Below, in pieces: positions 1-42,201 of a stretch of 64,000 nucleotides of DNA; the stretch's first letter is position 1; each line of letters starts with the position of its first letter. The notes below the pieces were generated by a model that was not told the origin of the DNA, did no database searches, and was given only the letters and a program-made list of their open reading frames with translations. The DNA comes from Hesseltinella vesiculosa (taxonomy: Eukaryota; Mucoromycota; Mucoromycetes; Mucorales; Cunninghamellaceae): NCBI GenBank assembly GCA_002104935.1, contig MCGT01000004.1, positions 186,001 to 250,000 of the forward strand, given 5' to 3'. Made by a program: the position numbers and the translations under genes.

Positions 1-3000
1 TTTCTTCTTTGACAAAACACTAGCCATGGTATTGTCATCGTCGGCGTCAAGGTCGGCAAAGGGCTGGTCCATCAGGGGCGCACCTTGATGGAGAAGCGCG
101 TCTTGCTGCTGTTGTTGTTTTTGATGGCGCATCTGGTACTTGATATCGCGGGGGCACTGTTTCTTGACGTCATACAGCTCACGAATGAACTTGGCGACCA
201 CTTCGGTGAACTTGCCTTGGGTGACTGGCGCCAGGTAGTCGCAAATGTTCCATTTCATCTTGATAAAACCAGGGGCGGTCTCGGAGCTGGTGACGGCTAG
301 TGGAGCAGCTGGGTCCATGGACGCAGGGACACGGCCGACAATGCCGCCATAGTTCATTTCATCCATCCAAACCGTGACGTCCCAGTAATTGATCAAATTC
401 AGTTCCAGGACTTCGAGCACTTGTTTGCGCTGGATCGAGCGGCACAGGTATTGCCAGTAGGGGATCGCTCCTTCCATGGTCTCCTTGGTGGTGCCGATGA
501 CAAGGCGATGGAAGCTGGCATAGATCACCTTGGCCCCCAGGCGTTTGACTTCGGCCACAAGCTGCATAAACACCTTTTTCATCAGGCTGTGCACCAGGCT
601 ATACATGCAGCCATCGTACATGTTGGACGAGGGGCTCAGCAACCAACGGAACAGTGAGTCCAGAAGGAGTTCGCTGATAGGATTCTCTTTGGTCAGGGCT
701 TGTTGGAACCATTGTTGGACCAGGTTGCGCAAGACTGAGAATGTTTTGTGGGAGATAGCAGCATCACCCAGTAAAGCGACCTGCTTGAGCGCCCCATTCA
801 CCGGTGTCATGTTCACGTCACCATCCAAATCCTTGGCTGGGTTCTTTTTGTCCTCTTCCTTGGTATCTGTACAAAAAAACGATGAGATCAATGAAAAAAA
901 AAAAAAAAAAAGAGGGGCTTACCGTCTGAGACAACCCCGAGGGCCGTATGAGTGGTGGCGTCGTCAAAGCCAACGGTGGCAACGGTACCTTCGAGTTCGT
1001 TGATCACAGGCGCCATGAGGATCGTGTTGAGACAGAGTCGGAGCACGTCGATTTCGACACTGATGGTTTCGTAGCTGCCGGGGTTGTTGATTTCGCTGTT
1101 GACCAGATCATTGATGTTGGCCATGTGCTCATCGTCCTCACGGCCGCCGAGATCCGGCCGGCCGGAGGCTGACCACCAAAGGACCATGTCATTTGTCAGC
1201 AGCTGGCGTGCAAAGGACAGATCGGCAATGAACACCTGCGGGTCGTTGGGGATGTTACACAGCGGCGCGTTGGCATATCGGGCTTGTTGAATGCGGCTCT
1301 CGAGGAAGTTGTTCAGCTGCATGTATCGGCTGACCATGCGCTTAAAGGCTGAGTGGGTCCAGTTCAAGGAGTCGAGACGGTTATCGTTGGACATGCAAGG
1401 CACCATCAAGTATGGGAAGCTCGGCAGGGCGGAAGACAGGTGCTGGGAGAAAAACTGCACAGGTCGAGGTGACACAATACACAGCATCACTGGCCCAGGT
1501 TTGGTGTTGTTGAGGTCTTGGAGTACGCGGCTGAGAGATCTGAGCAGCTTGGGTTCAGAGGTTTCATGTGTGGTCTTGAAAGTCATCGATGGCTTGTACT
1601 CAACGAGCTTGGAAGTGACGCCAGGCACAAGCTGTTCATATCTGTCGCTGTACACACGACTGAAGTTGGGAAGGTTGTCACGGGAGGCATTGACGAAGAA
1701 CAGATGACTTTCAGGTAAGCAGGCGCCCACCAAGGCATAAAAGTGGCGGGGGCCGGCCATCACATGGTGCAGGTATACATAATTGAACATGTTCTCCGGT
1801 GAGTCCAAGTACTTGGGTTGCAGATCAGCGCGAGGTTTGAGCCAGTCCAAGCGGAAAGTGTCTTCAAGTCGAACGCGGGGGTCGGCTGCCGAGCGATCCA
1901 CCTGACATACTGAGCCAAGCTGAAGGATGGCCCGTACAGACAATGGCACCTGCGTTTCGTACACGCCTAAGAAAAGATGCATGCAAGATGAAAAGAGGCA
2001 ACTTTTTTTTTTTTTTTTTTTTTACCTTCGGTGGAAGGATCGTTGAAGAGCGAGGCAAAGGTTTTGCATTCGTTTTGGTAGATGTTTTCTTCCATGGATA
2101 GTCGGAAAAGATGGTAACAGGGATGTGAGCGAGGGAGGGTGCGTACGCACTTGACGATTTCACAGGCATCTGGATCCGATTCAAGTAGGACAGGAGGGGT
2201 TTCGTTGAAGCTGTTGACGTAAAAGGTACGCGGCACCGTCAAGCGGATGCAGTGTAGTTGGTTTTGCATAGAGACCCACATGCGGAATTGACCAGGGCCG
2301 TCGGCATCGACGATTTGGATCACCTGCCAGGGCACGGTCAGCAGGGAGCCGGTTTGACGTTGGAAAAAGTGGTTGATTTCACCCACGCCGGCGCCTGCAC
2401 GCTGGGCAGGCAGGTTGGTCAGGTTGCCCATGGTTTCTCGAAGGAGGGCACGCTGGCGTCGTTGGCGTTTCCATTTCTTTTTTTGATACACCAGCCAGTC
2501 TAGGTAGTCGTCTTGCATATCGGGAGGAGGCTCGTTCAGGGCCTCATCGTCTTCGTCGTCGTCGTCCAAGTCAAGCTGTGAGCTCTTGCCGAGGCGTTTG
2601 CGTTTGGTGACACGGGCTGTCTTGGGCAACCCAGATGGGGCGCGACCGTTACCGCCGATGTTTAGGTCTTCGATGTCGCCGGTGTCCATGTGGTTCGGGT
2701 CTTGCTGGCGCGGTTCTTCGCCATCGACGTCCATTGCACTGGTGGAGGTAGGGCGAGGGGCTTTGCTGAACATGTCGGTGATGCGGTGCTGGCGAAACTT
2801 ATCGTCACGGGCGGCAATGCGCTTGAAGAGCCAGTCGGGGTGGGCAACGCGAGGGACAGGGTTGCGCACTTTCTGCATGGCAGCGGGGATGGTGATGAGC
2901 TTCTGGATGACGGAGCCAAAGCGTTCCAGATAGTAGGCCCAATCGAGGATATTGCGGATATCGAAGGCTGTCAGGCTGTCGTCCTTGAGCCACTTGCGAA

Positions 3001-6000
3001 GATAGTGCTTTTTGACACTGGGTTCGGCGGAGAAGATGGCGACGGGAATGGCTCGTTCGGAGACCGGCAGGTCATATGGGCGCGCAGAAATAACAAACTG
3101 ACAGGCGAGACCTTTGTCCTTGACCATCTGGTCGCCCAGGAACTCGGCCAGGCGCTTGGCGGTGCTGATGGAAGTGGATTTCTGGCTGCCATATTCTTCA
3201 AGGGTGCGGGACATGCTGCGGTTTTCAGAAATCAGTTCGAACAGCTCTTCGTCTTGCAGTTCCACGCCCTTGCTGTACAGGATATCGAGCCACTGGTTGG
3301 CTACCTTGGCCACGGCATCGTAGCATTCTTCAAGGGACAGGCCATCCAAGAAAACCTTGAACAGATCCGACTGGAAAATCTTGATCAGCTTGAGTTCGCC
3401 ACGGCGCTTGACTTCGAAGCCCTTGAGTTCAGCGAGCGAGCCATCGTCGTTGAAGACGGCATAGCGTTTCTTGAGCAGCTTGTCCTCTTGCGTCGAGGCT
3501 GGTAGGATCATGGCGCGGTAGGGCCCGTCGATTTCGAAAAAGATGGAGTTTTCGCTGTGGGTGGCGTAGACCATATTGCCGCGGTCGACCAGGTCTTGAT
3601 ATTGGTGGTTGGTAAAGCCGGCGTGGACAAGATGGTTCAGCATGGTACAGGGGTAGTCGATCTTGAAGGATTTGCCATTGGTCATGGTGAACTTGAAGGA
3701 TTCGGGGAAGCTCTTTGGCAAGATGCACCAGATGCCGTCGGTGTCGAGTTCCAGCGGACGACCGATGCGTTCGACGAGCTGGCGAGCCATTTGGATGATC
3801 CGGGAGCCAGTCAAACACACAATGCCGGCCATTTCGAGCGAGTGCCAGCGGGCACCTTTACGCATGACGTAGCCGTAAAAGGAGTTGAGAATACACTTGT
3901 GAGCAAGCTGAAGCGAGTCGTACAGGACAATCATGTTTTTGGCGTCGGTGGCTTTGGTGAGCGATCCTTCCTTGTTGGCGGCATCGAGGTTTTGTTTCCA
4001 GGTTTTATGTAAGCCTTTGTATTCATAGCGACGGTCACGGAAGGCACGCACGGTTTCGATATAAAACGGGTTTTCGCGTTGGCAAATGATGGATTCACGC
4101 TCCTCGACTTTGGTCTCTCGTAGCTTCTTGTATACTTTTTTCGAGTATTCGCTTAGACGTTTGGAGATCAGGGCTTGCTGCTCAGCTTCGGCCAGGGCTT
4201 GCCAGGGTCGGCGCGCACCATTGGGTATCTTGGGAGGGAAGGTTTCGATGCTGAGTTGATGGACAATCATGCGGTATTCATTGCGTTTGGCTGGCGAGTA
4301 TTCGCCACGCCACATCCAGGTCATGCGCCGATCACATTCTTTGCCGGGCAAGTTGAATTCGCAAGTGGCGCAGGTTGATTCGTCAATCATGGCGTCGGGC
4401 TGCAAACGGTTGGTGAGAATGATGTTTGGGTACATGGCAGCGACATCCAAGTGATAAATCAGAGGCGTTTCTTTGCGCGTGGGGTTGTCGCGAAGGTCCT
4501 CCAACTGGGCTTTGATGGCGTTGTATACTTCGTCGTAATTGGCAATGTCTTCCAGCTTTTTGTTTTCTTCCACTCGGATGGTGAATTTCAAGGCGTCGTC
4601 CAATTGATCGATCAGCTAAGCGTGTAGAGAAAACAATAAAAAAAAAAAAAAAGTAAGTCTCGATCTTGAGCTCTTTCTATTTTTGTTACAGCTAAAAACC
4701 TACCTGCTGTGCCCCTGTTGGGTCCAGTTTGAAGTCTGTGGAAATGTCGCTACGGAACACGCCAGCCTCGAGCGCTTCGACGTGGCCACCAACATAGGTT
4801 TGATTCTCAACCTTGTGTCCTTCATAAAACTGGTCATTGTCTTCCACGTGCTTGTTAGGGATGATCACATTGACTTTATAAGCTTCGACCTAGAAAGGGC
4901 AAAGGGAAAAACGGTAACGTGTTGGCATCGTGGCAGGTAGACGTTCATGTCGAGCCGCTTACCATAAGGAGCAGTTCGCAAAGGGTGCCGGTGCCTTTCC
5001 GCAGCACTTCATCAGGAATCAGAGGCAGGATATTGCAGAGCGAGAAGATGAAAGGATGCACATATTTCATGTAGAGGTAAAACGTGGCCACAGCGTCGGA
5101 GACAGAATACTGTGCCAGTGTTTGAGGTTGTTCTGAGGCAAACCTAATAGCAAGTGAACGATGAGTGGGGCTGGGTGGCATAGAATGGGCATGGAGAATG
5201 TCAAGGTGTACCGTGTCATATCTTCTGGATCGAGTTCCATTGGGTTGTAGCCAAGCTTGGCAGTGGTTACAGCTTTTAGGCCCTGGCTGCCTTGGGGTAA
5301 ATAGGAATCACGCTTGACCCAACGGAAGGCGTCCATGTGTGTTGCATGTTTGCATTTGTATTCATCTTCGTCATCCTTGTACACGCCAATTTCCTATAGA
5401 TGTAGCAGACGATGAAGAGGTCAGCGGGTCAGGCCAAGCAGGCAATCAAAGGGCGGCGGTCGGCGGCTTACCCTGTACATGTCAATGCCATGGAATTTGG
5501 CGCGCGCTTCCACGAATGGCCAATCAAAAAAGTCACCGTTATAAGTTACAAAGATGGTGGGGCGAGCTTCTTGAATGTGCTCAAAGAATCGATGCAAAAG
5601 TGATCGCTATGAACAGAAAAGAGGGAAGGGCAGGGATGAGTGGTTCGTTTCGGTCAGGGGTAGCTGTACCTCGTCTGGCTCGTTGAAGATTGTGAAAGGG
5701 CCTTCGAATTCGGGCTTTGGTGTGTATTCAAAGTCATCAATATCCTGGCTGACGATTTCGCGATTGGTGATCAAGTAACCCTATGCAAACCAGACCAGAG
5801 TAAGACTTCGCGACCCCCCCCCCTTGTCTTCGTTGCTTACCCGCCCTTCGATCATGTAGGAAATCATCATGATGGAATCGATGGTGGCGTCAGGAAACTT
5901 GAGCGGCAGTTTGGTGGTTTCGATATCAAAGGCAAGAATGACGGGATCAGGACGGTGGACCATGTCGGTTCTTCTTGTAAAGGTAGTCGTGCCGCTGTCC

Positions 6001-18842: not shown

Positions 18843-20633
18843 CTACATTTGCATTTCAAAATCATTCCAGCCAGAGCCGAGCAGGGTGTCGGGGTCCAGC
18901 ATAAAAGCATTGCCGATCAGTTCGTTGCGACTGGCAAGAGAGGCATGGTTGATCGCATGAAACGAGGTCGAGGAAAACAGGTGCTGGTGAGGGTTCTGTT
19001 CAAATCTGTCCAACGAGAAGCCGGTGGTGAAGCTGCGAGGTGCCCAGGTGTGGTGATAGACGGAGCCGACGCCACAGGAGCTATGAGGCATGTCGTCGAT
19101 GGCTTCCTGGTGAAAGTCAGGATGGGAAGGCTGCTGTCCGGCAGAGAGTGGATGTGAAGGATGGGGTTCTTGAGGATGATCAGGTTGATGAGGTTGGGAT
19201 GCATGGTCCTGATTGGGTGCTGGTAGCGAGTCGAAATTGGACACGGTATAGCCGTAATCAGAGGTATCATAGGGGTGTGAGTGGGCATCTACAAGAAAGC
19301 CAATCATCAGCTTCTGGCCAGGCAAAATAGATTTTCATGCGAACTTACGGTGGTCGGCGATAGAGGACGAGGACGAAGAAGTGGCATCATGACAAGTGAG
19401 CTCTTGTATGGCGAGCGAGGCAGGTGAAGAATGATTCGAAGGCGAAGACATCAATGTAGAAGATATGGCGTAAGGATAGGTGGGTGGCTGGCCAAAGGAC
19501 GAAGGGAAGGGTTGCTGTGGGTGAGGGGGTGGGAGGTATTGGACGGACGGAGAAGCTCTGGTGGAGAGATGGAACTGCGGCGACGATGGCAGAGGTAAGA
19601 CGAGGGAGGTGTCAGGTACGAGCGACGTAGGTGGGTTTGAGGAAGGGGAAGCGGGCAGATTGGTGGTGGCCATCAAAACATAAGGACTTGCCGAGTACTG
19701 GGTCAGGCTATCGCGGCGTTTGGGTTGGTTGGACGCCTGTCGTTTTCTTCGAGGTTTGGTGTTGTGTTTCTTGCTTGCCGCTGGCAGTTCTAAAAGAAGA
19801 AGGATGAGAAAAAAAAAGAATGAAACACTAAATTCACCAAAATGGATCTTTTCGATTGTCAACCCCATGTCCACCTCCTGATAATCATAGAAAAAGCCTA
19901 CCGTTTTGTTTGTCTTCATTACTGCCATCCAAATAAAAGGGAATGCGGAAATTCTGGCCACGGATCAATTCAGGCGAGATTTCAATCGCGGCCAGCTCAG
20001 GAAGGCTGCAGGGTGTGTTGAAACGTTGGTGCAATATGTCGTCTTTGGTGTAGTAGCTGATCAAATGCTGCTGCACGCCGTTGACAACGAGAGACATGGA
20101 TTTTTTGATCAGGCCATTTGGTTTGAAGCGATAGCTGCTCCGGAGTGAACCCACCAACGACCGTTCTCGCTGTCGTTTGGACAGGAGCGTCAGGCCTGAA
20201 GTGATGGACTGTGGCGTCGAAACGGGATCTTCTACAGCATGATCATCTTGTCGATCGTCCAGCTCTCGATATATCAGAAAGTTGCCAAGAATACGGGAAG
20301 GACTCCAGACAAGGCCATCCGTCCAACGCTTAATGCCTACATTAATGAAAAAGACACGGTAAGTGCATGAATGAGACCCCAGCCTATGTCCTATTGTGGG
20401 AGCAGGCACGATTCTGAAATCAGGGGATGAAGTGAGGCGGGCTGTAGGGAAGGCTACTTGCCGCTTTCTTTGCCATCGAAACAAAAGACAGCACCACTCT
20501 TGATTAAATGGCGCTCTTGATCCTGCAATCGCCGCTGTACACGAGGCAGCACTCCTTGGCGGCATGCTTCAAATACAAGTAATGAATCCTTGGTAGTTTC
20601 AATGTAACCAAAGTACGTTTCTACCACAGGCAT
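18843..20633 (-). CDS. WOPR-domain transcription regulator (Gti1/Pac2/Wor1 family)
   Basis: Fungal-specific DNA-binding regulator. Exons: about 20462-20633, 19903-20336, 19349-19789 and 18843-19288. The first exon encodes WOPR box 1 (ETYFGYIETTKDSLLVFEAC, then GAVFCFDGKESG). Exon 2 begins with KRWTDGLVWSPSRILGNFLI and continues through the second WOPR half (LIKKSMSLV, then LISYYTKDDIL). Exons 3-4 encode a basic patch (KPRRKRQASNQPKRR) and a long Pro/Ser/His/Gln-rich tail, probably an activation region. The intron at 20337-20461 has a GC donor (gcaagt on the minus strand) and splits the WOPR box between SG and IKRW. Relatives control morphology, mating or host switches (Wor1, Ryp1, Gti1). The role in this species is not shown by sequence. 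Confidence 0.93.
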
Positions 20634-36296: not shown

Positions 36297-37159
36297 CTAC
36301 ATAGGAACAAAAATTACCCATGGAGCACCCGTTGCTAGCCGGTTATTTTCATCACTTACCTGGGCTAGAGAGCTAGCAAGACGGCCATGGTTGATAGGCA
36401 AAGAAAACTGGCTGTCAAGTTCATACAAGTGATCGTCAACCTCAACGAAACAAACGTAATGGTGGTTTCCGTCTTGGCGTCCAGGTTGCTGCTTCTGAAG
36501 CAAGGCAGCTGTTTGGTGCAAGTGTCGAAGTTCATCCGACTTTTTGAGCCATTTCTTACGTTCGTCGGGCGACATGCCTTTGGCTTGCTCGAAAAAGCTG
36601 TGCATCGTACCGGGGCCGATGATTTCTTTGTCATCGTTGTTGGCAAGAGCATGCAGAAGCGCCATCATCCCGCAGTTGTTGTGATGGGCCTGCTGGAAGA
36701 AAATCACATTGGGGCTGATACATTGTTCCATTTTGGCCAGCCGCAACACCTCTTTTTGCTTGTAACTTTCATACTCATCGCTACGAGGAAACACATATAC
36801 CAGTGCCAGTGCCTCTGCTGGTAAATTTTCTACGCCATCTATTTCCAAACCAAGACATTAGAAAATACAAGACCTGTCACGTCTACTTGCCCTGCAGAGA
36901 AACAAAGTGCCACTCGTTGCTGACACCTGATTCATGAATAATCTATATGTGGAAACATGGTGATGAGTGTTTTGTCTTTCATGGCCATACCCAAGTCGGA
37001 GGAATTACCGAGTTCCAAACCTGGTCACGCCAAGAAAAAAAGTGAAACACGCAAACATGAATACGAATGCATTTTATAACAAAAGGATGCAAGACTTACT
37101 TGAGGGTCGGCTTCAAGAGGATGCCATTCAGATGCATAATTGGTGGTATTTTTTGTCAT
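36297..37159 (-). CDS. Ubiquitin C-terminal hydrolase, UCH-L3/Yuh1 type
   Basis: Peptidase C12 that trims small adducts from the ubiquitin (or Nedd8) C-terminus. Three exons: 37100-37159, 36891-36942 and 36297-36838, giving 217 aa, close to the 230 aa of UCH-L3. Substrate-binding start WHPLEADPQ, then catalytic Cys in HHNNCGMMALLHALANN, catalytic His in NHHYVCFVEVDD, and Asp in HLYELDSQ followed by PINHG, all in the family order. The crossover-loop region is the usual length (GMSPDERKKWL). The 52-nt intron 36839-36890 has a GC donor (gcaagt, minus strand); skipping it or using another donor breaks the frame. Confidence 0.93.
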
Positions 37160-37296: not shown

Positions 37297-37511
37297 TTTT
37301 TTTTTTTATTTTTGTTTCATAAGTTTGACACTTCAGAAAAAAATCCAATGTTAATAGCCAATCAGGCGCTTGAATTATTTTCATCAAAACTTACTTTATT
37401 CATTTTCATGACAAACCTGCCAATAAAAAAAAATTAGCATTTCCTCTTCACATTCTGCCTCAGGCTTGCGTAAAGAAGCTGGTTTATTGGCCAGCGAGGT
37501 AGAGATGTTCG

Positions 37512-40500
37512 TTAGTGAGGGTCCCGAGACGAAGAAGCAATTGCTGAATTTTGTTGGTGTGGTGATGATTGGTCGGTGGAGGTGGATCGTGGTGGGCAGA
37601 ACAACGCTGGGCGAGGCAATCCTTGGACGGCAGTCTTGCCAAGACGCAGCATATTCCAAGCCGCAAGCTTGTCCCTGTCCCAGTTGATTTTACAGTGTTG
37701 GCACTGTAGAACCGACCACAAAGACATGCTTGCGCCTCGCAGGAATGGGTCACCGACGGTCTTGTGTTCAAGGTCTTTTTCATCACACATTGGACAGACC
37801 TGTAAAAAAAAATGAAATAGAAAAAAAGGTCATTTTGCGCTTCACTTTTCCCTCTCCTCATGATTACCTTGCTTGTGTTGTATTCATTTGTTTTTGTAAC
37901 AAGAAGTAACCCTTGCTTTTCCGCTATTTTGAGTGCTTTGTACACTTTTCCGGAGCGAGCAGACATTTTCCCTCTACGGGTTTGCGCAAACAATGCACCA
38001 CCATAGGCAATCACTGGAAGTTTGCGGCTATAAAAAAAGTTAGTCCAGGCATCACACCTTTTTTTGTGAAGTGCATGCCTATCATAGTCTTCCTTCTGGT
38101 GTTTGTACTTGTTACCACCATGGACGAAGTGGTTGACGACTTCTGCGCACATCTTCTTGTCCCCACAATAGTCCAGGAACCGATGCAGGCTATAGTCATC
38201 AGCAAAATGTTCGGTGATATCATCAAGGTGTTGGAATACATAGATGGTGCGCTGAATGAAGCGGTCAGGATGGCTAGTTTTTGCTGGTGGTATACGCGTG
38301 AGGATCTCCTCCATGCCAGAATCTTTGAGCCAACGTTTTCGAATGCATGAGCGCCCATGTCGACCAGAGAGTGATAGCCATTCATTATTCGAGAATCGCA
38401 TGTACCGACCATGCCAACCATTGGTGCTGTTGCTGTTGCTGTTGTGCTCAGTGCCTGGGGCAGTGCGATCATTTCCCGGGAGGTGCTTGTCTTCTTGAGC
38501 AGATGTGTAAAGCTCACTATGTCCTGGATCGACTCCATACAGCTGCATACGTTCTTGTGGTTCATCATGCAAGTCGTCCATTTCGAGATCGGTAAGTTCA
38601 ATTTGGGGTGCGCGCTTGCCATAGATAAATTCCAATTGAAGCCCATCAGTGCGAACACGGTTGGAAAATACCAAGGAGGCAGGGTCATCATCTTCCTCTT
38701 CATCGTTACTATCGATTTCACTCAATTGAGTATCGCTGCCATCGTCCTGGCGTGTTGTCTCGTCAGTAAATCTGCCATGATCTTGATCACCATCGTCGAT
38801 TTCGCCCTCCGATGGGGTATTGTGAGCACCATCAGAACCGCCAGCAGGGTTGCCGATGTCATTAGCATCTCCATCAGTAACACCGCCACTATCATCTTCG
38901 GCATCACCGTTGTCAACATCGGGATCAGCACCACCAGCGTCATCTTCACTGTCGCTGTCAGTTTCAGTGAGCGTTGGATAATGCAAAAATGCGGCAGCAC
39001 TAAAAAAAAATCAGTCACGATTCCTGCCATCACAATGTTCCTCAGTTGCCATTTTCGAAGACGAGCCTACTGAAAGTCCAGGTAGGTGAAAAAGAGAGTG
39101 GCATCGCGAGCAAGGCGAATATAAGGATGAGAATGGTCACCCGACGGCACAGTCACGTTTATACCGGCTTGCTTGAGAATTGACCGAAATGAGTAGGCAT
39201 CCAAAGTGATAAACCGGCGACGAAAGGACAGAGTCGGCACAAGGGAAAAGAGGGCTGTTGACTTGGATTGCCTCATGGTGGAGGAGGAGAAGCAAAGGTC
39301 TGCTGATGTGTCAGTGCCGGCCAGTTTCGCCTTGGAGTTTGCCAACTTTACACGAAGGCCAAGGACGAGATCTGACAGCCAGGTCTTAAATTCTTCCGGT
39401 TGACTCCAGGGGATGTCAATTGGATTGTCTGGGTGCTCCAGCAATTGCATCATGCCCTTGAATACTCTTTGGCGACAGCGACGAGGCAGCACCTGATAGT
39501 CCATGTTAGATGATAGTAAGAGCTTCATGGTGATTGTGTCCATTTGATCATGCACATCGTCCATGCCCCATCTCAGATGGTTCCAGGTCGTTGCCTTGTT
39601 CCATTTCTTGCAATAGTCGGTAAAGTACTTGTAAATATGTTCCGGGGCTTGCAGTAAGTTCCTTCAGCGTAACTGGACTTGGACCAAAGTTCAGGGTTGA
39701 GATAAATGTTGAGACGATCGTTCGCAAGAAATCAGGGCTATTTTCTGACAGTGGTTCAACTTTTTCTTGACAGGTGACAGTGTCGTAAATATTCTGGCAT
39801 GCGTTCATAATATAACCGGACTTTGGCATATCCTATGTCAAAAAAAAAGTGAGCAACTCGCGCCTTCTTATTTTCTCTCTCTTTCTTACTGACCTGGCCT
39901 TCAGACAGCTGATCCTTGAGGGTGTTGACCAAGCGAAAGCGAATATACTTGATACACTTTTCTTCAAAACGTTCAGTCACAGCCAAGAGATTGATTTGGG
40001 CTAACTCATCCGCCATTTCAGAAACCATGTTACTAGCACCCTTGATCCAATATAGTTCGAAGCGGCAGTCACCCAAGAGAGACTGGTAATGGTGATACAT
40101 TGCTGTAGGATCAGGTATGTTCGAGTTGGGGGAGGTCACAGCCTTGCCAGTCACCAGTTGGCAGATCCCATAGAAAAAATCTTTACAGAATACAGTATCG
40201 TTGACCACAGAACCCTCAGACATGACATGCAGAACATAATAGCTGAAGAACGACTGGGCGCAGATTGAGACATAGCGGATGTGATCGACCCATAGGAGGA
40301 TGGTTTCTTGGACGTCCATCTTTGCTTGGCGTTGGTCTTGGATATTGTCTTGGGTCATGTTAAGAGCATTACAAAGAGATATCTTGCGAACACGGGTTTT
40401 GAAATTGGTACCAAGCAAGAGAGACTGGAGATCCTTCAACTTGAATTTCTTGGCTTGCGGGCCATGGAGCCAGCCTTACGTAGAAGCTTGTTGGCCCTTT

Positions 40501-40809
40501 TGAGCTGGGTTTTGGACTTTCGTTTGCCACCTTTAAAAGTAAATGTTAGAAACTGGCAATGTAGGGGCGATCAATACTAACGGTTGAAAGGACAATCTGC
40601 TCGCTTGTGCCCTAATCCATGGCACAATGTACACTTTAAACCTAATGGAAGAGAGGGAGATCATGAAGCAACGCGTTTTAAAAAATAAACAAACAAGGTC
40701 AATAATAGGATTTACCTTTGAGAATGTAATATTTTCTCATTTTCAAGTTATACAGCCAAGTCTTATTTGCATCTATTCGTAATTGCCTTCTTCTTATATG
40801 ACGCCCCAT
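37512..40809 (-). CDS. Fanzor-type RNA-guided nuclease homologue (TnpB relative), with two apparent frameshifts
   Basis: Exons (minus): 40716-40809, 40582-40641, 39894-40530, 39071-39832, 37868-38999 and 37512-37799; conceptually about 990 aa. Start ATG at 40809 (MGRHIRRRQLRID). Exon 2 encodes a CCHC knuckle (CTLCHGLGHKRADC). Helical guide/target-binding region in exons 3-4, then FSLVPTLSFRRRFITLDAYS, typical of Fanzors. Exon 5 opens with about 100 residues rich in D/E/G/S, then RuvC-I YGVDPGHSELYTSA (Asp codon 38528-38530), then AYGGALFAQTRRGKMSA and TNEYNTSK (Glu codon 37883-37885). Exon 6 has the zinc ribbon CPMC...CQHC and RuvC-III DRDKLAAWNML (Asp codon 37671-37673). Frame is lost near 40455-40475 (one base short) and at the C-run 39644-39647 (one base extra). 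Both are in C-rich runs, so decay or sequence error are both possible. Confidence 0.85.
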
Positions 40810-40930
40810 TTTAAATGTAAATAAATGCTGAAGCAAGGTTGTAAAAAAAAAGTAAAGAAAGAAAAAGAACTCTTTGAACGCGCAGCACCCTTTTCAATAA
40901 ACCCCGCTCGTTGTTTTTCTTGCCTCTGGC

Positions 40931-42201
<1,271 letters not shown>

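Follow-up and report, generated by a model that had tools for sequence, protein, structure and literature searches.

A decayed copy of a probable Fanzor1 element, present in many copies in the genome of the mucoralean fungus Hesseltinella vesiculosa

The window, a stretch of 64,000 nucleotides from Hesseltinella vesiculosa (Mucorales, Cunninghamellaceae), very probably contains one decayed copy of a Fanzor1 element that has many copies in the genome, the intact ones of which would code for RNA-guided nucleases that aid the persistence or spread of the element. The observed part of this explanation consists of the sequence identity of the gene, its copy number, the ends of the element, the lesions of the window copy and the selection on the open copies.

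The gene is read on the minus strand as a spliced model from an ATG at 40809 to a stop codon at 37512, and both of these ends, proposed in an initial annotation of the sequence, were borne out. Five introns had been counted at that time. Alignment of the copies, together with NCBI protein models, predicts six introns and seven exons. The features of the element and of the predicted gene are as follows.

37326..41504, minus strand: whole Fanzor1 element, about 4.2 kb (left end 41504, right end 37326)
40934..41108, no strand assigned: CT dinucleotide array in the 5' region of the element
40716..40809, minus strand: exon 1, with the start codon at 40809 (ATG in all 17 copies) and a GT..AG intron edge
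40582..40641, minus strand: exon 2, with a CCHC zinc knuckle, CTLCHGLGHKRADC, whose C, C, H and C are kept in the 16 copies compared
39894..40530, minus strand: exon 3, N-terminal extension, with a 34-bp deletion between 40455 and 40454
39050..39832, minus strand: exon 4 (family model), with the FSLVPTLSF..FITLDAYS block, an extra base at 39562 and a stop at 39069-39067
39000..39049, minus strand: intron 4, whose donor is GC in the window copy but GT in all 15 others of the comparison
38079..38999, minus strand: exon 5, acidic insert and then RuvC-I (Asp codon 38530-38528)
38028..38078, minus strand: intron of 51 nt missed in the initial annotation; of 16 copies, L038 and the window copy have GC as its donor and the other 14 have GT
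37868..38027, minus strand: exon 6, with NEYNTSK at its end (Glu codon 37885-37883)
37512..37799, minus strand: exon 7, with the C4 zinc ribbon, the RuvC-III Asp (codon 37673-37671) and the stop codon
37326..37511, minus strand: non-coding stretch from the stop codon to the right end, the expected place of an omega RNA scaffold by analogy with what is described for SpuFz1 (PMC10432273)

The donor of intron 4 lies at 39049 in the family, a choice that agrees with NCBI protein model P0001; the GTAGGC at 39070 chosen earlier suits the window copy alone. The 51-nt intron is in frame, and the predicted family protein has 1006 residues if it is read and 989 without it. Models P0001 and P0003 both lack the residues of this intron. 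The DPG stretch is also missing from P0001, a gap taken to stem from faulty gene prediction in a damaged copy. Most Fanzor1 proteins have 600-700 residues, according to the general description in one structural study (PMC11423790). The extra length of the present protein lies in an N-terminal part with the CCHC knuckle, for which Pfam matches were weak and under the cut-off, and in the acidic insert before RuvC-I. The size of about 990 residues, the N-terminal knuckle and the acidic insert are the variant features of this family.

The motifs from which a Fanzor had been recognized all stand in the spliced gene as described: the FSLVPTLSF..FITLDAYS block, GVDPG (RuvC-I), NEYNTSK, and, in the last exon, CPMC, CQHC and DRDKLAAWNM (RuvC-III). 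The Fanzor call is upheld, for the spliced gene contains DPG, the final RD and a Glu ahead of the C4 ribbon. The Glu had been regarded as an alternative placement found in some Fanzors. It is instead the rule for Fanzors, because Yoon et al. (2023), where they define a molecular fingerprint of Fanzors, make it DPG plus a Glu that precedes the zinc finger by six residues (PMC10711439). In the window gene, GVDPG is present and the Glu is followed by six residues and then Cys. The motif that Bao and Jurka give for these proteins, D-X(125,275)-[TS][TS]-X-X-C4 zinc finger-X(5,50)-RD (PMC3627910), is found as well, with 199 residues from D to TS, then TS-K-V-C, the C4 ribbon and RD five residues past the last Cys. 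Two spacings fall outside the search pattern quoted by Yoon et al. (PMC10711439), namely 193 residues from DPG to Glu (pattern 120-160) and 27 residues between the CxxC pairs (pattern 12-18), and the ranges of that pattern are the limits of a single search, not of the Fanzor family. DPG, Glu, the four Cys and RD are invariant in all six aligned Fanzor sequences of the genome, the window's included. Among the copies of the family, DPG, Glu, both CxxC pairs and RD are kept in the 16 of 17 that were compared (the internally deleted L044 was set aside), with CLMC in place of CPMC in L030. This retention, like the PF07282 score given below, goes beyond a chance likeness.

Profile and structure databases gave a graded picture. 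The TnpB zinc-ribbon profile PF07282 matched the C-terminal part with 33.9 bits (cut-off 26.3), and NCBIfam guided_TnpB matched weakly (18.5 bits, cut-off 100). The single spliced sequence found no PDB chain at E 1 and a two-sequence full-length profile found none at E 0.01. A six-sequence profile matched 23 PDB sequences, with SpuFz1 (8gkh, E 1.5e-10) ranking first, GtFz1 (9cer, E 5.7e-7) second, chains of TnpB and Cas12 lower down, and no chain bearing the name PpFz1. The alignment with GtFz1 spans DPG, Glu and the third catalytic position (Asn in GtFz1), and that with SpuFz1 takes in Glu and the final Asp but leaves out DPG. The link to Fanzors suggested by the PDB comparison thus lies in the C-terminal third of the protein, and its two best matches favour a place nearer to Fanzor1 than to Fanzor2 or TnpB. 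Alignment to the solved Fanzors also supports the three catalytic residues put forward in the initial annotation. By homology, D, E and D of the window protein would meet in one metal site, given the PDB alignments and the residues reported to hold the metal ions in SpuFz1, E541, D383, N385 and D606 (PMC10432273). A structure prediction of one exon segment with three database proteins was uninformative (mean pLDDT 34). In the protein database, none of 5089 candidates matched the whole query at E 0.001, and a profile search matched three proteins, all of H. vesiculosa. Viral contigs yielded 41 pattern matches, none of them a relative.

The site had been described as apparently single-copy, which is wrong. 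The genome examined (27.05 Mb in 85 contigs) holds at least 17 copies, the window's included, a lower bound obtained with 46 of 258 candidates scored. A protein search of this genome gave exon-sized matches of 72-97% identity on other contigs. Similarity to the window copy starts at 41504-41490 in 13 of the 16 other copies, exactly at 41504 in nine of them; of the remaining three, two have a shortened left end and one lies at a contig start. On the right, it stops at most 1 base from 37326 in 14 of the 16, the exceptions being one early stop and one contig end. The right-end sequence was found at 16 places, every one within a copy of the family. The left-end sequence occurs at six places beyond the copies; of the four that were read, L049 and L050 may represent short relatives lacking the gene. 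As in other members of Fanzor1, the gene is therefore carried by a eukaryotic transposable element, with common ends in its copies. No empty site of the window copy was found among the matches scored, 40 of 152 candidates; its joined flanks matched the two flanks themselves and a separate repeat.

Several neighbouring features were recorded. The flank left of the element, 41561-41710, is another dispersed repeat with at least 40 further matches of 71-81% identity. A ubiquitin C-terminal hydrolase gene (36297-37159, Peptidase_C12), whose start and first exon are the analyst's own reading of the ORFs, probably starts about 166 bases downstream of the right end at 37326. A gene for a Gti1/Pac2 family regulator is found at 19885-20565 on the minus strand (E 5.7e-30). 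Two adjoining ORFs at 888-4435, also on the minus strand, match POL2_thumb and DUF1744, the latter presumably belonging to the catalytic subunit of DNA polymerase epsilon, and are probably parts of the gene for that subunit.

The suggestion that this could be a recently dead Fanzor was supported, the frame of the window copy being broken at several points. Read in frame, this copy reaches its first stop at codon 83. The 34-bp deletion in exon 3 is shared with L031 and the extra base in exon 4 falls in the same column as one in L034; exon 5 has a 6-bp in-frame insertion. Because of the deletion, the extra base, the nonsense codon at 39069-39067 and the change of GT to GC in two splice donors (those of intron 4 and the 51-nt intron), the window copy is dead and the full protein cannot be made from it. 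A frameshift considered near 39665 was dropped after comparison with the other copies, which placed the lesion at 39562. Movement of an already broken copy in trans, considered on account of the deletion common to the window copy and L031, was likewise rejected, because the copy tree, built without L044, groups L031 with two copies that lack the deletion. Conversion or recurrence is possible as the origin of the common deletion. The coding sequence is open throughout in six of the 17 copies and nearly so in L038, where one base is missing in the stop codon. Among the six, dN/dS is 0.21-0.41 with a mean of 0.29 (15 pairs); the open copies are under selection.

That a host-adapted Fanzor is kept at this locus for a cellular job is scarcely credible. 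The richness of the gene in introns and the position of the element close upstream of the ubiquitin hydrolase gene would fit such a role, yet the frame is broken here in several ways and is open in copies elsewhere, and element ends and introns are common to the copies. The host-adapted status proposed in the initial annotation is thus not supported, as the locus belongs to a set of at least 17 copies, six of them open, and a domesticated full-length protein at this locus is refuted by the broken frame and the multiple copies. Because other copies look intact, the gene at this locus is of a known kind rather than a single-copy gene that has been tamed. The lesions could alternatively be assembly errors in a functional copy, as they were judged from the assembly alone and this assembly is split into 85 contigs. 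This is very improbable, since the lesions are of differing kinds and the 34-bp deletion recurs in another copy. It is still less probable, indeed extremely so, that the gene codes for a TnpB of bacterial type, or for some other transposon protein with RuvC, and is no Fanzor. The weak guided_TnpB match and the TnpB and Cas12 chains among the lesser PDB matches point in that direction; against them stand DPG with the relocated Glu, a Fanzor signature in the definition of PMC10711439, two Fanzor1s as the top PDB matches, and GT-AG introns in a gene located on a fungal chromosome. Taken alone, the window locus is nothing out of the ordinary: a dead transposon copy of an already recognised kind of element.

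This Fanzor1 family resembles several described Fanzors in part. Like SpuFz1 of Spizellomyces punctatus (8gkh), it has the RuvC region with the final RD and with the Glu ahead of the zinc ribbon. SpuFz1 is described as a multi-copy element with full-length and partial copies and Fanzor-free 'ghost' loci, and that account reports no transposase between the repeats of the element (PMC10432273); a multi-copy element in which no transposase was found is thus common to both. According to the catalogue of Bao and Jurka (PMC3627910), SpuFz1 consists of one ORF of 633 residues, which lies between 33-bp inverted repeats. In the window family, in contrast, a gene with six predicted introns codes for about 990 residues with a knuckle in the N-terminal part, and the element has no clear inverted repeats. 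GtFz1 of Guillardia theta (9cer) is alignable from DPG through the ribbon, but its third catalytic residue is given as Asn (PMC11423790), whereas the window family has Asp. PpFz1 of Parasitella parasitica is likewise a mucoralean Fanzor1 with extra domain sequence, which, as described in the same study (PMC11423790), sits inside RuvC, unlike that of the window family. Bao and Jurka (2013) list Fanzor1 elements in Mucor, Rhizopus and Phycomyces (PMC3627910), which belong to the same fungal order and are likened here by description. Their entries also include the multi-exon Fanzor1 genes of CRe-1/2/3 in Chlamydomonas and some unclassified Mucor elements without inverted repeats, both like the window family in these respects (PMC3627910).

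The type of carrier transposon was addressed through the ends and the other ORFs of the element. Six ORFs besides the Fanzor gene, five of them in the 5' region, gave no match and no transposase in a Pfam search. Similarity between the ends as an inverted repeat was weak, being equalled in 40 of 2000 shuffles (global) and 653 of 2000 (local). No target duplication was consistent in the 12 copies having both ends; a 12-bp repeat occurs in L037 alone, where it adjoins a shortened left end. The mucoralean MuDR-type Fanzor1s listed in PMC3627910 have 9-bp duplications, whereas the window family has neither a consistent 9-bp duplication in these 12 copies nor clear long inverted repeats. A Helitron2 carrier would be marked by terminal hairpins, a T-rich target without duplication and a RepHel partner. 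Folds of the element ends were weak in the four copies folded, and Helitron_like_N gave a single match in the genome. Just outside the left end, T makes up a fraction of 0.41 over 10 bases, compared with 0.25 further out, a descriptive figure from 14 copies; the left-end consensus was drawn from 10 of these 14. Some CRe insertions are said to follow TTTT without target duplication in the account of Bao and Jurka (PMC3627910), and the T-rich left flank recalls the Helitron2-borne Fanzor1s of Chlamydomonas described there (PMC3627910).

How intact copies of this Fanzor1 element would act is modelled on SpuFz1, GtFz1 and PpFz1, from which RNA guidance, cutting and benefit to the element are carried over. 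An intact copy would code for a nuclease of about 990 residues that may bind RNA made from the 3' end of the element. The guide part of this RNA would be the host sequence directly past the right end, and the enzyme would therefore be expected to cut the matching empty site, beside a short motif that occurs at the element's left end. Cutting would be carried out by the D-E-D RuvC site with metal ions, and cleavage of empty sites may help the element to persist or spread. An element of this kind, with no recognised transposase, clear inverted repeat or consistent duplication, might even spread in a homing-like manner by means of its own long CCHC-knuckle nuclease. The enzyme would cut the empty site named by the 3' flank, host repair would copy the element in, and the N-terminal knuckle would provide an added grip on nucleic acid. 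This last proposal is improbable. A literature search in which few subscription papers were covered found no paper that pairs a Fanzor with a zinc knuckle or CCHC.

By the same analogy, an omega RNA would be expected to come from the 3' end of the element, with its guide beyond 37326. The last 48 codons of the gene show 2 synonymous changes against 7.9 expected (P 0.015), in a stretch picked after looking, and seven of 863 upstream windows were as low in the scan of synonymous changes. An overlapping RNA could be the cause of these sparse changes. The 186 non-coding bases up to the right end vary as fast as introns (0.141 versus 0.129 changes per site), in a comparison of the 3' stretch, introns and codons made with L044 and L042 set aside. 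This non-coding stretch folds no better than shuffled sequence (z -0.58, 47 of 200 shuffles as good) and had no match at the cut-off in an Rfam search.

Further Fanzors are present in the genome. A search with PF07282 gave 46 matches, none of which are the 17 copies of the family. A second Fanzor family occurs at three places, is 33% identical to the window family over the aligned part and, in a weak alignment, resembles it in a cluster of cysteines close to the start. L045, L046 and L047 are among the places with Fanzor sequences outside the window family, and L047:8034-8165 may hold a fragment (tblastn E 0.045).

The window locus adds to the known Fanzors an intron-rich and unusually long Fanzor1 family of a mucoralean fungus, several copies of which are apparently intact. 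The clear decay of one copy beside maintained copies would help to test of what use Fanzors are to the elements that carry them.
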